Source: a virus. From it: DNA of 22,379 bases. The translations under genes and the position numbers were made by a program. This document shows, piece by piece, positions 1,186 to 21,675 of the stretch. The notes under the pieces were generated by a model. It saw only the letters and a program-made list of their open reading frames with translations, made no database searches and was not told the DNA's origin. Each line of letters opens with the position of its first letter. The first letter of the stretch is position 1. The stretch spans positions 1 through 22,379 of the IMG/VR virus record IMGVR_UViG_3300011013_000109. One strand, 5' to 3'.

Positions 1186-1202
1186 CACGCACGCCACAAC
1201 TC

Positions 1203-1238
1203 ACACCCGTTAGGATTGTGCCTAACGGGTGTTTTTTT
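1203..1238 (+). terminator. Intrinsic terminator of the sigma-like gene
   Basis: Eleven-base arms CACCCGTTAGG and CCTAACGGGTG surround a 6-base loop and are followed directly by seven T residues. It starts 18 bases after the stop codon of the upstream gene. This is a textbook Rho-independent terminator and separates the regulator gene from everything downstream. Confidence 0.93.
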
Positions 1239-1375
1239 ATGCGCGAACATATCAACATATACTTATGTGTTGATGTATTAAAATGATACACTTCTGTTAG
1301 CTTCTCACGTCCACTCTAACGCACGCCAATAGTCGATAGGTAGTAAACCCCATTAACTGCATCGCATCGCGTTAC

Positions 1376-1435: not shown

Positions 1436-1476
1436 TATAACTTCTATATATAGTCGAGTGTTTTTAAATATTTTTG

Positions 1477-1524
1477 TTTTTAGCGCACCGCTTTATAACC
1501 TACACGGTTATAGAGTGTAAGCGA
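1477..1524. repeat. 48-base element, copy 1
   Basis: First copy of an element repeated at 1608-1655 with 45 of 48 positions identical. It begins with a T run, continues with AGCGCACC, and contains an inverted repeat ATAACC-TACAC-GGTTAT, ending in GTGTAAGCGA. The two copies start 131 bases apart. Candidate roles are tandem phage promoters, origin iterons or binding sites for a phage regulator. Confidence 0.75.
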
Positions 1525-4383: not shown

Positions 4384-4915
4384 ATTCAAATCGTTTAATC
4401 ATACTGCGGAACACTACACACAGCATGATGTGCAATTGGTAGGCGGCACTGAGACTATCTCGGTACGCACACCTAACGGGAGGCAGATTACCTTTGCCTT
4501 CCTGCCATATGAGCGGGGCATAGGGGTCGAGCCTCAGTGTGTGGACATTGTGTACCATCACAACGGGGACACCATTGGTACAGGCTTTGACAATCAGACA
4601 CCAGTGCAGGCACCCATCGTGTTTGGTAAAGGGACAACACCCTACAAGTACGACGGCAATGCTGCACACAAGCCATCCATCGTGACTGTCCTGATGGAAG
4701 AGGAAATCAGGATGCTGTCAGACTGTGATGCTGATGAGCGTAAGCACTGGAAGTTAGAGTACTCTCTTGAGGTGGGCGATGAGACACAGCGTCGAGAATG
4801 GATGACGTATTACTCAACGAAAGATCGTGCTCGTGAGTGGTTTGAAGCACGCAAGGATTTGTTTGCGGGTCAAGATCCGCAGTTAGTGGAGGTCAAAGAT
4901 GAGGAAGGTGAATGA
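4376..4915 (+). CDS. Hypothetical phage protein
   Basis: A 179-residue soluble protein of unknown function. The N-terminal half contains a beta-rich segment (VQLVGGTETISVRTPNGRQI) and GIGVEPQCVDIVYHHNGDTIG. The C-terminal 60 residues are charged and helical, ending EVKDEEGE. AAGGGGG lies about six bases before the ATG at 4376; an adjacent GTG at 4373 is the alternative start. The gene overlaps its upstream neighbour by 8 bases and its downstream neighbour by 17. No domain is recognised. Confidence 0.65.
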   Translation: MSEFKSFNHTAEHYTQHDVQLVGGTETISVRTPNGRQITFAFLPYERGIGVEPQCVDIVYHHNGDTIGTGFDNQTPVQAPIVFGKGTTPYKYDGNAAHKPSIVTVLMEEEIRMLSDCDADERKHWKLEYSLEVGDETQRREWMTYYSTKDRAREWFEARKDLFAGQDPQLVEVKDEEGE

Positions 4916-5171
4916 CAATCATGGACGGGAACACACTGTCCATGCATGGTACATCTTAGTTAATGGATGGGAGTACTATCAGACAGAGCCAGCGGACGAA
5001 GAGAATATAGCCTATGGTTTTGTGCATGGGCTTGAGGATGAGTGGGGATCTTTCTCCACTGATGAGATGGGTGAGTACATCTTGGCACACGCTAAGGGTG
5101 ATGAACTCAATGAGATTCGCCCACCAATTGGTTGGTCATGGAAGGAGGAAGTATGTACATCGTCAGCGTGA
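4899..5171 (+). CDS. Small hypothetical protein
   Basis: A 90-residue protein with an aromatic N-terminal half (VHAWYILVNGWEYYQTE) and an acidic middle. GTGGAGG lies about six bases upstream of the ATG, inside the end of the previous gene. The 3' end overlaps the next gene by 19 bases, and the codons for WKEEV supply its GGAGGAA. No family is recognised. The pattern of beta strand, aspartate/glutamate-rich helix and proline-rich turn gives no functional hint. Confidence 0.65.
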   Translation: MRKVNDNHGREHTVHAWYILVNGWEYYQTEPADEENIAYGFVHGLEDEWGSFSTDEMGEYILAHAKGDELNEIRPPIGWSWKEEVCTSSA

Positions 5172-5428
5172 GTTACGACTACGATCAGGTGAAGGTTGGC
5201 GATGCAATACAGTACCGTCCTTCATGGGGTGATGATCCACCTCGACTAGCAGCTGTTGTGCGAATGTCTTTGGTTAATAACCCGGGAGATAAAGAGGATG
5301 GGCAAGACATTGAATCAGCTGCACGTGAATTAGTGGATGCACAAAGAGTGGTATTTGATTTAGACAATGGACACTGGTGCTACTCAAAGCAGGTGGACGG
5401 TGTCGCAGTAAGGGAGAACGTAGAATGA
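5153..5428 (+). CDS. Small hypothetical protein
   Basis: A 91-residue protein starting MYIVSVSYDYDQVKVGDAIQ. GGAGGAA lies five bases before the ATG at 5153; an upstream in-frame ATG at 5138 lacks a ribosome-binding site. The segment VKVGDAIQYRPSWGDDPPRLAAVVR could be a small beta barrel, and the C-terminal half is helical and acidic. Its stop overlaps the next start as ATGA. Function unknown. Confidence 0.65.
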   Translation: MYIVSVSYDYDQVKVGDAIQYRPSWGDDPPRLAAVVRMSLVNNPGDKEDGQDIESAARELVDAQRVVFDLDNGHWCYSKQVDGVAVRENVE

Positions 5429-5757
5429 CAGAGCAAGAATATCTTAATGACGCTATAGAAAACTGTTTGAACAATCGCAATGGGCGGTTGCACTGGACGC
5501 TTGAACGAGGGCAAGGACAGACATATAACTCTGGCCTGCCTACACTCTACGCTCATGATAACTATCCACGCTATAGCGTGCTGTATGGTAAACAGCGTAG
5601 GCAATACGTCCACGAATTTGATAGCGTCGAACAGGCGATGGAGATGCTATCTGGACACCGCATCATGCGGTATCTAAACAACATGATGCAAGGTGGGACA
5701 ACACACATTGATGTGGATATTGTAACCTCCCACCTGCCAGATACACCGGACTGGTAA
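5425..5757 (+). CDS. Small hypothetical protein
   Basis: A 110-residue protein starting MTEQEYLNDAIENCLNNRNG, followed by an aromatic, histidine-containing middle (LYAHDNYPRYSVLYGKQRRQ) and a hydrophilic end. AGGGAG is placed eight bases before the ATG at 5425. It closes the compact gene run that started at 2800 and is followed by about 390 bases of non-coding, highly foldable sequence. No family is recognised. Confidence 0.65.
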   Translation: MTEQEYLNDAIENCLNNRNGRLHWTLERGQGQTYNSGLPTLYAHDNYPRYSVLYGKQRRQYVHEFDSVEQAMEMLSGHRIMRYLNNMMQGGTTHIDVDIVTSHLPDTPDW

Positions 5758-5777
5758 TCATAACAATACAACATCAG

Positions 5778-6055
5778 ATGTGGCAAGGAGCCACTGCCTC
5801 TGTCCCTTTGGACATGTCTTGGTGACAGGCACGCTTTCCTCTGCCTCTATCTGTGTATCGGGTTGATGTCCCGATCAGCTGTACCCTCTATGCATAAGAG
5901 GGCGTGAGGCTGTGTGCTGAAACCGTATGGCCACGGCAACAGTAGCATTAGGCTAGGTGAGACTACAGTGTTTGGTTGTAGTCCAAGACCGGAAACCAAG
6001 TGGTGGGTATTAGCATACCCTACTACGCCAAGTCGGTAAGCCTAGCTGCCTTTTT
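5778..6055 (+). ncRNA. Structured RNA of unknown class (predicted)
   Basis: No plausible gene lies between 5758 and 6150, but many compatible helices do. Simple hairpins: GTGGC/GCCAC (5780-5784/5790-5794, loop AAGGA); TGCC/GGCA plus TGTC/GACA (5795-5804/5824-5831); CCGT/ACGG (5923-5926/5933-5936). First junction: GCCTC/GAGGC (5843-5847/5906-5910) encloses ATCGGG/CCCGAT (5857-5862/5870-5875) and CCCTCT/AGAGGG (5884-5889/5897-5902). Second junction: GGCTAGG/CCTAGCT (5951-5957/6041-6047) encloses GACTACA/TGTAGTC (5961-5967/5977-5983), ACCG/CGGT (5988-5991/6034-6037) and GTGGTGGGTA pairing with TACCC and ACTAC (6000-6009/6016-6026). TTTTT at 6051-6055 may mark the 3' end. Bases 6056-6150 contain only the leader of the next gene. 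Confidence 0.55.
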
Positions 6056-6150
6056 AATCCGGCGGTGGTAACCCATCGCTCCCGATTGTTAGGGACAAAA
6101 GCATTAGCACAAAAGGATTTTCTTTTTACTTTAACACTGGGAGAAACGGC

Positions 6151-6696
6151 ATGGCTAGCATAACACAGTATGTTAATTGGGATGCGTATGGAGCGGACCA
6201 ACTGATTGCATTCGTCAAGGGTCTAGATGGGCACACCATCTTCAGCCAGCAAATGCTAGAGGAACACGGCATCTCTGAGCCTGACCAAGAGTTGCTACTA
6301 GAGTATACATACTCTACAGGATTCGCATGGAACGATGAGTATGATGGACGCAGGTACATGCGTGTGGATCAGGATGTCTACGAGGCAGTGCGTGACCTCG
6401 TCGCTGGATCGACAACAATAAACGAAGTCGATGTTATATTGCTAGGCTTTGTCAAAGACTATGACCAAGTCAATAAGAAAACATTCACGCTGGATGATTA
6501 CAAGAGCACGCTGTTCAGTGACGGCAAGCCTGTGGGAATGTTGAGTGGTGTGTATGGATTAGATGTACTGCGTAGCATCGTGCGGTACTACAAGCTAGAG
6601 GCACCAGTCAAGATGGGGCGTGGCTTCCAAGCACGGGAGTACCAGTCAGCAATCATCGAGCATATAGAAACTAACTTAACAATTACGGAGGAGTAG
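6151..6696 (+). CDS. Hypothetical phage protein
   Basis: A 181-residue soluble protein starting MASITQYVNWDAYGADQLIA. It looks mainly helical with acidic patches and tyrosine-rich segments. GGGAGAAA lies about eight bases before the ATG. It is the first gene after the structured RNA region and could be controlled by it. The segment DQELLLEYTYSTGFAWNDE and the C-terminal AREYQSAIIEHIETNL do not match a family I recognise. It is followed after seven bases by the next gene. Confidence 0.65.
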   Translation: MASITQYVNWDAYGADQLIAFVKGLDGHTIFSQQMLEEHGISEPDQELLLEYTYSTGFAWNDEYDGRRYMRVDQDVYEAVRDLVAGSTTINEVDVILLGFVKDYDQVNKKTFTLDDYKSTLFSDGKPVGMLSGVYGLDVLRSIVRYYKLEAPVKMGRGFQAREYQSAIIEHIETNLTITEE

Positions 6697-6979: not shown

Positions 6980-7076
6980 AGTTACAGTCTGGACATTCAT
7001 TGGAATCCTGATAGGATTGCATTTACTAAACGAGTGGCTCCACTCGACAAGCTGTTGCGATCAACAGCAGGGGTAG
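6969..7076 (+). CDS. Small single-pass membrane protein
   Basis: A 35-residue frame overlapping the end of the previous gene by 11 bases. Residues 5-24 (VTVWTFIGILIGLHLLNEWL) form one hydrophobic helix, followed by a short tail with a CC pair. GAAGGA lies about seven bases before the ATG. Too short for family assignment; support is the ribosome-binding site, the overlap style and the clear membrane helix. The 107 bases after its stop contain only the stem-loop at 7133-7162. Confidence 0.5.
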   Translation: MAIEVTVWTFIGILIGLHLLNEWLHSTSCCDQQQG

Positions 7077-7132
7077 CCCATTAGCTGGTGGCTTTGTAAC
7101 AGCTATCAAGTTGTCATAGTGACACTCCAAAA

Positions 7133-7162
7133 AGGGTGGGTGGCTGTCATACCACCCACCCT
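7133..7162. terminator. Strong GC-rich stem-loop (terminator candidate)
   Basis: Perfect 11-base arms AGGGTGGGTGG and CCACCCACCCT surround an 8-base loop, 21 bases ahead of the next start codon. On the plus strand the following bases are ACTTT, a poor U tract. On the minus strand the stem is followed directly by TTTT, giving a canonical intrinsic terminator. It may stop antisense transcription, act in both directions or stabilise a processed mRNA end. Confidence 0.6.
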
Positions 7163-18566: not shown

Positions 18567-19858
18567 TGGCAACTGTAACAACTAGTATTGGTACTAATAC
18601 AAGCATCGACACTGAAACACCTAGCAGTGGCTCAGGCTCCAATCCATACACAGTAGCATTTGGCACAGACCCAAGTGGTGTTAGCGTTGGCGACTCCGTG
18701 CATTTCGACAATGGGATGGGCACTGTATATGTATATCTAGTTACGGGCATATCTGGCAGTGACTACACGCTCAAGTGGATATCGGGTGGGATGGGTGCAA
18801 CAAACCCATATGGCATTACAGACATGTCATATAGCCAAGCAGCGGGCGTGTTCAAACGCACTTACAGCACTATCAGTGCATGGGAGAGCGACCTAGATAA
18901 TACGAGTTATTACTCATCAAGCGATCATGCTGTCGGTGAGGCTTACGACGACTCCGTTTTTGATGAATATATAGTCATCGACAGCGGAGGCACGGTTGGC
19001 CTATCGTCAGTCAAATTGACCGTGCCTGAATCTGAGCGACATGATGGTACAGCAGGCACGGGTTCGAGGGTTGCATACACGGGCAGCCAAAGCAGTTCAT
19101 TTAGAATCCGTCGGAGTCAGTGTACCGTGGAATGGATTGAACTGGATCTCACTGGCTGCGGATCAGCGGTTTCGGCTGGCTTAAACCTTGGATCAAATTC
19201 AACCCAAGACGTTTATGCTACAAATAATATCATTCATGGCATAACGACTCAGAGCACCCACATCCATGGGATCTATGTCTGGGGAACAGGTGATTCGTCA
19301 AACACTCGGCATGTGATGAATAATCTGGTCTACAACATAGACAACTCATCCACCTCGAAAGACGCTTCGGGCATAACCATAGCGTCCGGAAACTGGGGCG
19401 TATATCTGTACAACAATACGGTCTACAACGTAATAGTAGACGGAGGCGATACAGCCCACGGTATCTCAGTTAACGATACAGACTCGTTCCTTAAAAATAA
19501 CATATCAGCTAGAGCGTCAGATGACTGCTTTGGAGAATCTGAATTTTCTGGATCTACCCATGACTACAACCTCAGCACCGACGCGACTGCAACCGGAACA
19601 AACTCTGTCACTGGAGAAGCATACGGAGACCTGTTCGTTAATGATACGGCAGGTAGTGAAGACCTTCACTTGAAGGCAGGTGCCGATGCCATCGGGGCCG
19701 GAACAGACTTAGGAACATCGCCAACTAATGTTAATATAGATATTGACGGACGTGATCGTGATTCATCTGGTGACACGTGGGACATTGGAGCCGATCAAAC
19801 AGCGTCAGCCTCAGTGAGCGTACCGATAGCCATCTTTTTCACAGGAATGAGTACATAA
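18566..19858 (+). CDS. Putative right-handed beta-helix tail/appendage protein
   Basis: A 430-residue protein, low in cysteine and very rich in serine, threonine, glycine and aspartate. Residues about 175-345 consist of short repeated strands with N-N, G-I and hydrophobic ladders (for example TNNIIHGITTQSTHIHGIYV and NNLVYNIDNSS), the pattern of a right-handed parallel beta-helix. The start, VGDSVHFDNGMGTVYVYLVT, looks like a small beta-sandwich. Such proteins form tail fibres or spikes that bind host surface sugars. A short hydrophobic end (VPIAIFFTGMST) is unusual. Transcription and translation are coupled to the flanking genes through TAATG overlaps. Confidence 0.65.
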   Translation: MATVTTSIGTNTSIDTETPSSGSGSNPYTVAFGTDPSGVSVGDSVHFDNGMGTVYVYLVTGISGSDYTLKWISGGMGATNPYGITDMSYSQAAGVFKRTYSTISAWESDLDNTSYYSSSDHAVGEAYDDSVFDEYIVIDSGGTVGLSSVKLTVPESERHDGTAGTGSRVAYTGSQSSSFRIRRSQCTVEWIELDLTGCGSAVSAGLNLGSNSTQDVYATNNIIHGITTQSTHIHGIYVWGTGDSSNTRHVMNNLVYNIDNSSTSKDASGITIASGNWGVYLYNNTVYNVIVDGGDTAHGISVNDTDSFLKNNISARASDDCFGESEFSGSTHDYNLSTDATATGTNSVTGEAYGDLFVNDTAGSEDLHLKAGADAIGAGTDLGTSPTNVNIDIDGRDRDSSGDTWDIGADQTASASVSVPIAIFFTGMST

Positions 19859-21675
19859 TGGCAACTAGAAACGTAGAAATGACAATTACCTATCTCGGAT
19901 GGGATACCTCTGCTAATGCAGGCAAGACCGGGGATGTAGGAAATCATACGCTGCGATGGGTTAAAGATGGTACATCTTCTGCACCCACCAATAGCGCCGC
20001 TGAGGTTGATGCTACAAATGCACCCGGCATATATAAGATCACAATGACAGCCACTGAAACAGACGCCAATATTGGTGTACTGTGTGGCAAAAGCAGCACT
20101 GCCAATATAAGCATTGTTCCAATCACACTACAGTTTGAGAGACTACCCGACGCTGATCCCGCTGCTAATGGTGGACTCCCAACAGTGGATGCCAGTAATC
20201 ATGTGAATGGTGTACAAGATACACTGAGTGTCAATGTTACGACCATTGAAGGTTCTGACGCAACGGATCAAATTAATGCAGCATGTGACACTGCACTTTC
20301 TGATTACGATGCTCCAACCAAAGCAGAACTAGATTCAGCCTTTACGGAAATCAAAGGTGGCACTTGGTCCTCATCTACCGATACGCTAGAAGCTATCAGA
20401 AATAGAGGTGATGCGGCATGGATAACTGCTAGCCCACCAACAGCAGCAGCCATCGCTGATGCCGTATGGGACGAAGCAACTAGTGGTCATACATCATCAG
20501 GAACATTTGGTGAGCAAGTTAAAACAGACATTGATGATATTCTTGCTGACACAGCAGAGATAGGTTCAGCGGGTGCTGGACTTACCGCAGTCCCGTGGAA
20601 TAGTGCATGGGATGCTGAAGTGCAAAGCGAGTGCAATGATGCACTTGTGGCGATAGGGTTAGATCACCTTGTAAGCGCATCGGTAGCAGGGTCTGACGTT
20701 GTGGATGACTCAATCATTGCTAAGCTAGTCAGTAAAGAAAGTACGGCAGACTGGGATGACTTCGCTAACACAACGGACAGCCTGCAAGCTATCAGGGATC
20801 GAGGAGATACATCATGGACAACCGGCGGTGGCGGAGGAAGCTGCCCATCGGCTGCGGATATTGCCGATGCTGTATGGGACGAAGCTACGTCTGGGCATAC
20901 TAGCAGTGGTTCGTATGGTAAGGCATTGTCTGATATCCTTACGGACACAGCTGTTATCGGTGCAGCAGGAGCCGGTCTCACTGCGGTCCCATGGAATAGT
21001 TCGTGGGATGCGGAGGTACAAAGCGAGTGTAATGATGCTTTAGTTGCTCTCGGTCTTGATCACCTTATCAGTGCATCAGTAGCTGGTAGCGATGTGGTTG
21101 ATGACTCAATCATTGCCAAGTTGGTTAGCAAGGAAAGCACAGCTGATTGGGATGACTTTGTAAACACGACTGATAGCCTTCAGGCCCTTAGAGATAGGGG
21201 TGACGCATCATGGATAACCGGCGGAGGTGGAAGTGCTGCTGACATTGCGGATGCAGTCTGGAACGAAGCTGCCGGAGATCACACCAGTTCAGGATCGTTC
21301 GGCAAGTATGTCGCAGACATCCTGACAGATACAGCGGTCATCGGAGCCAATGGTGCTGGCCTGTCAGCGATACCGTGGAACAGTGCTTGGGACACAGAAG
21401 TTGAGAGCGAAGTCAATGACGCACTTGTGGCTTATGATCCCCCGACTAAAGCTGAGATGGATGGCATGTGGACATCAACACAGACAGAGAGTTACGCAGC
21501 GGATGGCGCAGAGGCAACACCTGCACAGCTGCTATACATGATCCTTTGTGCAGTCAGCGAGTTCTCGATATCTGGCACGACGATCACTGGCAAGGAGGTA
21601 GACGGCAGCACGACTGCTATGACTTGGACAATCAATGATGCAACCAGCCCAACCAGTAGAACAAGGGCTACCTAA
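19858..21675 (+). CDS. Repeat-containing virion/appendage protein
   Basis: A 605-residue protein. Residues about 1-95 are beta-rich, with LGWDTSANAGKTGDVGNHTL and APGIYKITMTATETDANIG. From about 198 there are two full copies and one partial copy of a 128-136-residue repeat, beginning with ADAVWDEATSGHTSSG and including AGLTAVPWNSAWDAEVQSE and a glycine linker (GGGGG). The C-terminus returns to beta-rich sequence. The composition and place next to a beta-helix protein fit a fibre, appendage or neck protein. No family is recognised with certainty. Starts at ATG sharing a base with the previous stop. Confidence 0.65.
   Translation: MATRNVEMTITYLGWDTSANAGKTGDVGNHTLRWVKDGTSSAPTNSAAEVDATNAPGIYKITMTATETDANIGVLCGKSSTANISIVPITLQFERLPDADPAANGGLPTVDASNHVNGVQDTLSVNVTTIEGSDATDQINAACDTALSDYDAPTKAELDSAFTEIKGGTWSSSTDTLEAIRNRGDAAWITASPPTAAAIADAVWDEATSGHTSSGTFGEQVKTDIDDILADTAEIGSAGAGLTAVPWNSAWDAEVQSECNDALVAIGLDHLVSASVAGSDVVDDSIIAKLVSKESTADWDDFANTTDSLQAIRDRGDTSWTTGGGGGSCPSAADIADAVWDEATSGHTSSGSYGKALSDILTDTAVIGAAGAGLTAVPWNSSWDAEVQSECNDALVALGLDHLISASVAGSDVVDDSIIAKLVSKESTADWDDFVNTTDSLQALRDRGDASWITGGGGSAADIADAVWNEAAGDHTSSGSFGKYVADILTDTAVIGANGAGLSAIPWNSAWDTEVESEVNDALVAYDPPTKAEMDGMWTSTQTESYAADGAEATPAQLLYMILCAVSEFSISGTTITGKEVDGSTTAMTWTINDATSPTSRTRAT
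20449..21447 (+). repeat. Internal tandem protein-coding repeats
   Basis: Copy A about 20449-20856, copy B about 20857-21240 and partial copy C about 21241-21447. A and B agree at most amino acids, for example DSIIAKLVSKESTADWDDF in both. Over 30 shared residues around SASVAGSDVV I counted 21 differences in 90 bases without any amino acid change. The repeats therefore diverged long ago under strong selection on the protein. Confidence 0.8.

Follow-up and report, generated by a model that had tools for sequence, protein, structure and literature searches.

The window analysed here, the whole of positions 1 to 22,379 of IMG/VR record IMGVR_UViG_3300011013_000109, is a 22.4-kb tailed-phage fragment encoding an SSB, a RecE-like exonuclease, a helicase, RusA and a GP88-like protein, with nearly all major genes on the plus strand. 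Positions 5758-6150 form a gap that holds no credible gene, and ARAGORN detected no tRNA or tmRNA gene in the window. An earlier note on this DNA had proposed a structured RNA of about 280 bases at 5778-6055, built around two multibranch junctions and followed by a T run. The complementary segments of the stems it named are all present in the sequence. The proposal stands for its 3' part (5951-6055, plus strand), which is a conserved RNA of about 105 nt, extending from an outer helix (P1) to a U tract, and has relatives in 13 further virus records and on one MAG contig. It does not stand for the 5' half (5778-5940), which lies outside the conserved RNA, and the two-junction architecture as a whole is not retained.

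The window can form four helices, P1 to P4, and a pseudoknot, all on the plus strand. P1 pairs its 5' strand GGCTAGGT (5951-5958, conserved core 5953-5958) with its 3' strand GCCTAGCT (6040-6047), and three of the six core pairs change on both sides among the relatives; the closing stem 5951-5957/6041-6047 of the earlier note is conserved as this helix. A different outer stem returned by RNAfold for the window (TTAGGCT/AGCCTAG) was dropped, the family alignment placing GGCTAGGT/GCCTAGCT in register with the relatives. P2 pairs GACTACA (5961-5967) with TGTAGTC (5977-5983), and its loop L2 carries TTGGT (5972-5976, family core 5973-5975), the 5' side of a pseudoknot whose 3' side is ACCAA (5995-5999, family core 5996-5998). 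The joining strand J2/3, CAAGA (5984-5988; CAAAA in most relatives), is unpaired and nearly invariant in the alignment of 12 distinct sequences (A9). P3 is proposed between CCG (5989-5991), invariant in the 12 sequences, and the equally invariant CGG (6034-6036). The P4 hairpin (6000-6026) consists of a base (6000-6004/6022-6026), an upper stem (6005-6010/6015-6020) and a variable tip, and leads into J4/3, GCCAAGT (6027-6033; GT[C]AAGT in relatives), unpaired and conserved in the same alignment. The T run of the earlier note is real: a terminator-like U tract, TTTTT, lies at 6051-6055, and every one of the 12 family sequences has T-rich sequence after P1. Across the family the order runs from P1 (6-8 pairs) through a GA joint of two bases to P2 (7 pairs, closing a loop of 7-9 bases), J2/3 and P3, then a short strand whose last bases are ACCGA or ACCAA, P4 (5-6 pairs), J4/3, P3', a short joint, P1' and the T-rich tract. 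The P4 tip differs greatly in length and sequence between members.

Rfam 15 returned no match at or above the gathering score for the window, and a permissive search of 5700-6160 yielded only chance-level matches, all on the minus strand and none to a self-cleaving ribozyme family; the relatives L091, L097 and L142 had no Rfam match either. DNA comparison with annotated phages and plasmids gave nothing above chance, and the neighbouring proteins (5428-5757 and 6151-6696), used as queries, recovered only the two near-identical contigs described next. The exact core is present in only two public viral contigs, L003, which is 99.95% identical to the window across 13.5 kb, and L002, which is about 97% identical nearby. 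Between the window and L002 there are no substitutions in the flanks 5601-5779 and 6056-6148 and 22 in 5786-6028. Seven differences fall within 5941-6052, all of them in 6005-6028: six sit in the P4 hairpin, where every pair is kept and one G-C is exchanged for A-U, and the seventh (6028) in J4/3. In a pairwise mutation test the signal from energy and broken pairs was weak, and structure identity in the 3' part reached p ~0.02; taken alone, the differences between the two 3' halves are suggestive and statistically thin.

More distant members were found with covariance models and sequence patterns. A model of the 3' half alone (R1), built from the window and L002, was searched over loci of phages retrieved by means of their GP88-like neighbour gene; it matched L017 and L021 at E 0.014 and, on whole records, G005 (E 1e-6) and G002 (E 6e-6). 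The core common to these matches can be seen in their sequences. A degenerate DNA pattern of this core led to L094, L096, L097 and L099, and a relaxed pattern to L142 and L149. Other pattern matches (L093, L098, L100, L104, L105 and most of L106-L158) did not survive inspection, and none of those searched with R1 was recovered; of 12 matches in bacterial and archaeal genomes, 11 were unrelated sequence. A second model (R2) was then made from seven relatives, with the window and L002 left out and the P4 tips shortened to align the helices. It recovers the window at 5953-6053 (35.7 bits, E 3e-6) and L002 (36.2 bits, E 2-3e-6, as for the window), and scores 85-105 bits on all other members. Searched over 28 records, R2 finds a single copy in 14 (13 virus records and a SAR202 MAG), including a further member in G006. 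With the window the carriers number 15, namely 14 virus records (the window and one near-identical contig counted) and one SAR202 MAG contig, each record with a match holding one copy. By these searches the family is uncatalogued, with no match in Rfam 15 or in the phage and plasmid collections, and an open-access literature search, based on words rather than sequence, found no description of the RNA.

The fold is supported by covariation. Standard pairs occupy 98.0% of 299 pair cells, compared with 88.9% in column shuffles, and a custom-written phylogeny-preserving simulation gave means of 60-63% and maxima of 72-75% against the 98% observed. Changes on both sides occur in 10 of 25 pairs (33 cells), compared with at most 3 in slid-partner controls; no shuffle reaches the observed paired fraction or covariation score, and the signal is lost once the partners are slid. 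Given the structure, four of the 25 pairs are individually significant at E <0.05 under the phylogeny-preserving null. Two lie in P2, with double-sided changes (UA/CG and CG/UA; E ~0.03 each), and two in P4, where double-sided changes affect four of the six base pairs and column pair 52-89 reaches E ~0.0007. These values come from 12 sequences that belong partly to the same groups, in records that are mostly fragments and all from uncultured phages, and from an alignment that was fitted to the model and so leans toward the structure; the P2 and P4 exchanges can nonetheless be seen in the raw sequences themselves. A single compensatory change, C-G to U-A, underlies the pseudoknot: the end of the P2 loop reads CGG in most members and TGG in the window and L002, the partner strand before P4 reads CCG, or CCA in the window and L002, and the pairing is accordingly CGG x CCG in relatives and UUGGU x ACCAA in the window. 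Invariance of the P3 strands is consistent with pairing, not proof of it, and formability supports this helix. No reading frame is conserved, because P4 lengths vary and the joints differ by one base; the length differences in P4 and the joining regions are not multiples of three. The existence of a conserved RNA at 5951-6055 can be regarded as nearly certain, and the claim of a new phage-encoded structured RNA outside known classes is borne out for this part by covariation among 12 distinct sequences and the absence of an Rfam match. The earlier note had suggested comparisons with Rfam by Infernal, with homologues for covariation, with shuffled sequences for energy and with conserved reading frames; the first gave no match, the second was strongly positive for the 3' part, the third gave a weak signal and the fourth found no frame.

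Folding energy would have been a poor guide. On the plus strand, 5778-6055 has z = -1.92 (8 of 200 shuffles were as good), which gives no support to the earlier argument that so many nested stems are rare by chance, and the minus strand is oddly lower (z = -3.52). In a scan of the whole window, two 120-base segments within the region reach -3.4 and -2.95 on the plus strand, and others in the contig, coding ones included, reach -5.4. Because lower-scoring segments, some of them coding, occur elsewhere in the contig, energy neither proves nor excludes a structured RNA.

The 5' half of the gap (5758-5950, plus strand) is gene-free and foldable. An nhmmer search with 5758-5947 over all fetched loci gave no homologue beyond L002 and L003. 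L002 is the sole divergent homologue of this half, hence the single comparison for the other closing stem of the earlier note, 5843-5847/5906-5910 (GCCTC/GAGGC), and there two of five pairs are lost (GCCAA). Long gene-free leaders also precede the RNA in L099 and in L142/L149, and are dissimilar to the 5' half of the window. Terminators or chance folding without RNA function remain the default reading for 5778-5940.

The carriers fall into groups that have few or no large proteins in common: the window with L002 and L003; G025/G026; G001/G023/G006/G017; G021/G022 with G024; and G005/G002. G025 has almost nothing of at least 90 aa in common with the others except a large tail-region protein that it shares with the window, and the best terminase (TerL) matches are phrog_979 in G025 and phrog_2 in the G006 group. 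Tail or receptor-region proteins are common to groups that differ in core genes (window-G025, window-G001 and G017-G021), which hints at shared or related hosts. Parts of the large tail-region protein are 78-91% identical between window 19777-21675 and G025 31516-33795 in phages that otherwise share little, and a host-recognition module has likely been exchanged here. A 90-aa gene at 4899-5171 was considered as an RNA-linked partner and rejected, being missing from about half of the carriers. The distribution of the RNA is best read as that of an accessory element apparently exchanged among several marine phage lineages.

One copy lies in a contig binned as SAR202 (L168, VFHP01000013.1), the twelfth of the genome matches, and is the same RNA as in L102. 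Its value as an indication of the host is weak, because the last 17 kb of the contig are 95-98% identical to a viral contig and the remainder includes what we take, from the translated open reading frames, to be phage-type replication genes. No other copy of the RNA was found in 393 genomes of the class to which SAR202 belongs.

A sigma-70 promoter sequence stands directly upstream of the RNA in six relatives, as a perfect TTGACA-16/17-TATAAT in L094, L096, L097, L101 and L103 and as a weaker TTGCAA-17-TATAAT in L179. Given the perfect promoters, transcription should begin at or shortly before P1. In L099 a promoter lies 216 bases upstream of the core motif, and no such site was found in front of the RNA in the window, L002, L142, L149 or L102/L095, so that an own sigma-70 promoter is common in the family rather than a defining feature. 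Throughout its 22 kb the window lacks any sigma-70 promoter matching the consensus at 11 or more of 12 positions, and it encodes a weakly sigma-like protein (phrog_1740); for these reasons its phage may use other promoters. In L101, L102, L180, L181, L183 and L184, consensus TTGACA-TATAAT promoters recur roughly every 1-2 kb in the early regions, and their spacer is often GACGAT-like. At the other end of the RNA, a simple scan found no terminator; with some 80 nt inside its stem, P1 would be unlike the classic terminator with a short hairpin.

The gene that follows differs from carrier to carrier. In most relatives the next start codon falls within a few tens of bases after the U tract, and in L096 a second consensus promoter lies between the RNA and the next gene. 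The window protein encoded at 6151-6696 ends in ETNLTITEE, and a separate 77-aa gene in L002, on the reverse strand 651-884 bases past the RNA, ends in ETNLTVTEE; in the window a deletion seems to have joined two genes into one. A homologue of this 77-aa gene lies directly behind the RNA in L142 and L149. A family of tiny proteins (VVIYLDFERDDIDDIDVYEYLNELMD-like) occurs near the RNA in L101, L095, L102, L096, L099 and L103, directly downstream in L101.

Further gene-free segments of these phages may hold elements of their own. The next gap of the window, 6980-7136, is weakly similar (nhmmer E 5e-4) to L142 7381-7484, the leader directly upstream of the RNA in that record, and the pair is possibly a second conserved RNA. 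In L099 a promoter precedes a stretch of about 155 bases, lying roughly 190 to 35 bases ahead of the core motif, that AGGAAGG/CCTTCCT and a T run close off; this may be another small RNA, arranged in tandem with the present one. Two 59-base copies in the window (1466-1524 and 1597-1655), 88% identical and with the dyad AACCTACACGGTTAT, sit in the gap 1186-1984, which follows a gene weakly resembling sigma factors, and are candidate phage promoters or operators. Window 1201-1320, also gene-free, folds strongly on both strands (z ~-4.9 and -4.0) and is perhaps a bidirectional terminator.

We read window 5951-6055 as an uncatalogued, pseudoknotted small RNA of about 100 nt, an accessory phage gene that would act in trans, and put the probability of this whole statement at about 0.5. 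It is favoured because the core is near-invariant, several carriers have a promoter and a terminator-like end, each record holds one copy and the neighbours differ. The RNA would fold with P1 as outer stem, a P2 hairpin whose loop and the J3/4 strand form the pseudoknot, then P3, and P4 as a hairpin with a variable tip, and P1 together with the U tract would terminate its transcription. In relatives a dedicated sigma-70-type promoter would start the transcript at the edge of P1; for the window phage, operon transcription or an unrecognised promoter would supply it. It would most likely be made early. From gene context and conservation we infer that it acts in trans on a partner, which would be a conserved host component (for example polymerase, ribosome, a nuclease or a defence protein); contact would be made through the near-invariant joining strands, leaving the P4 tip free to vary. 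More tentatively, it might be an exchangeable host-directed RNA effector, passed among unrelated marine phage lineages and made early, that blocks or redirects a host machine or defence through direct RNA-protein contact, a mechanism undescribed for phage RNAs.

Since the next start codon is often close behind the RNA, a cis-acting leader is the chief rival to a trans-acting small RNA. Here the RNA, placed between promoter and early operon, would decide how far transcription reads through its U tract, whether as an antiterminator in the nascent RNA, on the model of HK022 put, or as an attenuator or riboswitch. Promoter, RNA, U tract and next gene start follow in direct succession in L101, L103, L094, L097 and L179, and L099 has its promoter 216 nt ahead of the core motif. 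In HK022, putL lies directly behind its promoter and putR about 270 nt behind (PMC9378689). We nevertheless consider a leader rather unlikely, since the next genes are unrelated across carriers, L096 provides its next gene with a promoter of its own, the element is missing from the other promoters in these phages, inspection found no conserved second strand able to compete with P1, and no promoter stands in front of the RNA in the window, L142 or L149. By contacting RNA polymerase, put suppresses termination further downstream. HK022 put is a phage nascent-RNA antiterminator of two stem-loops and about 70 nt, present in two copies per genome, behind PL and PR (PMC9378689). The new RNA resembles it as a phage RNA of similar size that can adjoin an early promoter and needs no dedicated protein, but is a branched pseudoknot of about 100 nt with a U tract and one copy per record, rather than two stem-loops, and in the window it lies inside an operon without a recognised promoter.

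A riboswitch would be expected in front of identical or functionally related genes, and the downstream genes of the carriers differ; the riboswitch-like leader of the gene at 6151 that the earlier note had suggested is not favoured, the next gene differing between phages and having its own promoter in L096. In topology the RNA can be compared with the SAM-I-type riboswitch, with an outer P1, a P2 whose loop pairs with the J3/4 strand, a P3 and a P4. The outer P1 and the pairing of the P2 loop with J3/4 are alike, whereas P3 of the new RNA encloses the pseudoknot strand and P4, and there is neither a match to an Rfam riboswitch nor a relation among the downstream genes.

A specific form of the trans-acting model, which we regard as quite improbable, is an RNA counter-defence or decoy that mimics a host guide or repeat RNA. 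Racrs are phage RNA anti-CRISPRs that copy a CRISPR repeat, and Racr candidates stand alone, in many cases immediately behind a predicted promoter (PMC10651486). The new element is likewise a small non-coding phage RNA, a solitary unit without an associated protein gene that is exchanged between lineages and has a strong promoter directly upstream in several carriers. Its branched, pseudoknotted fold, however, is larger than a single repeat hairpin, and a repeat-like origin is not demonstrable. HK022 put and the Racrs are the nearest functional comparisons, and membership in neither is supported.

That the region holds mere terminators or chance folding without RNA function would suit the unremarkable energy of the whole, but is very improbable and is contradicted for 5951-6055, where covariation, pseudoknot compensation and near-invariant unpaired strands exceed what a terminator or chance would give. 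A packaging RNA of the phi29 type (pRNA), a small phage RNA whose ends pair and whose loops are complementary in sequence, resembles the new RNA in these respects and in having a junction, and is the least credible reading of all: there is no Rfam match, and the carriers include different terminase families, whereas an RNA needed for packaging would be expected to stay with a single motor. GOLLD, ROOL and other ornate phage RNAs are conserved and structured, several hundred nt long, and their function was long unknown; the new RNA is similarly conserved, structured and carried by phages, but is about 100 nt long and has no Rfam match.

Few structured RNAs of phages are understood, and put, pRNA and Racr each revealed a distinct way of handling transcription, packaging or host defence. 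An energy-based screen would have missed the present RNA, which was found by a covariance search among uncultured phages. With a defined boundary, a covarying pseudoknot fold, promoters in six relatives and carriers in several lineages, the family offers a function that is testable by expressing about 100 nt.
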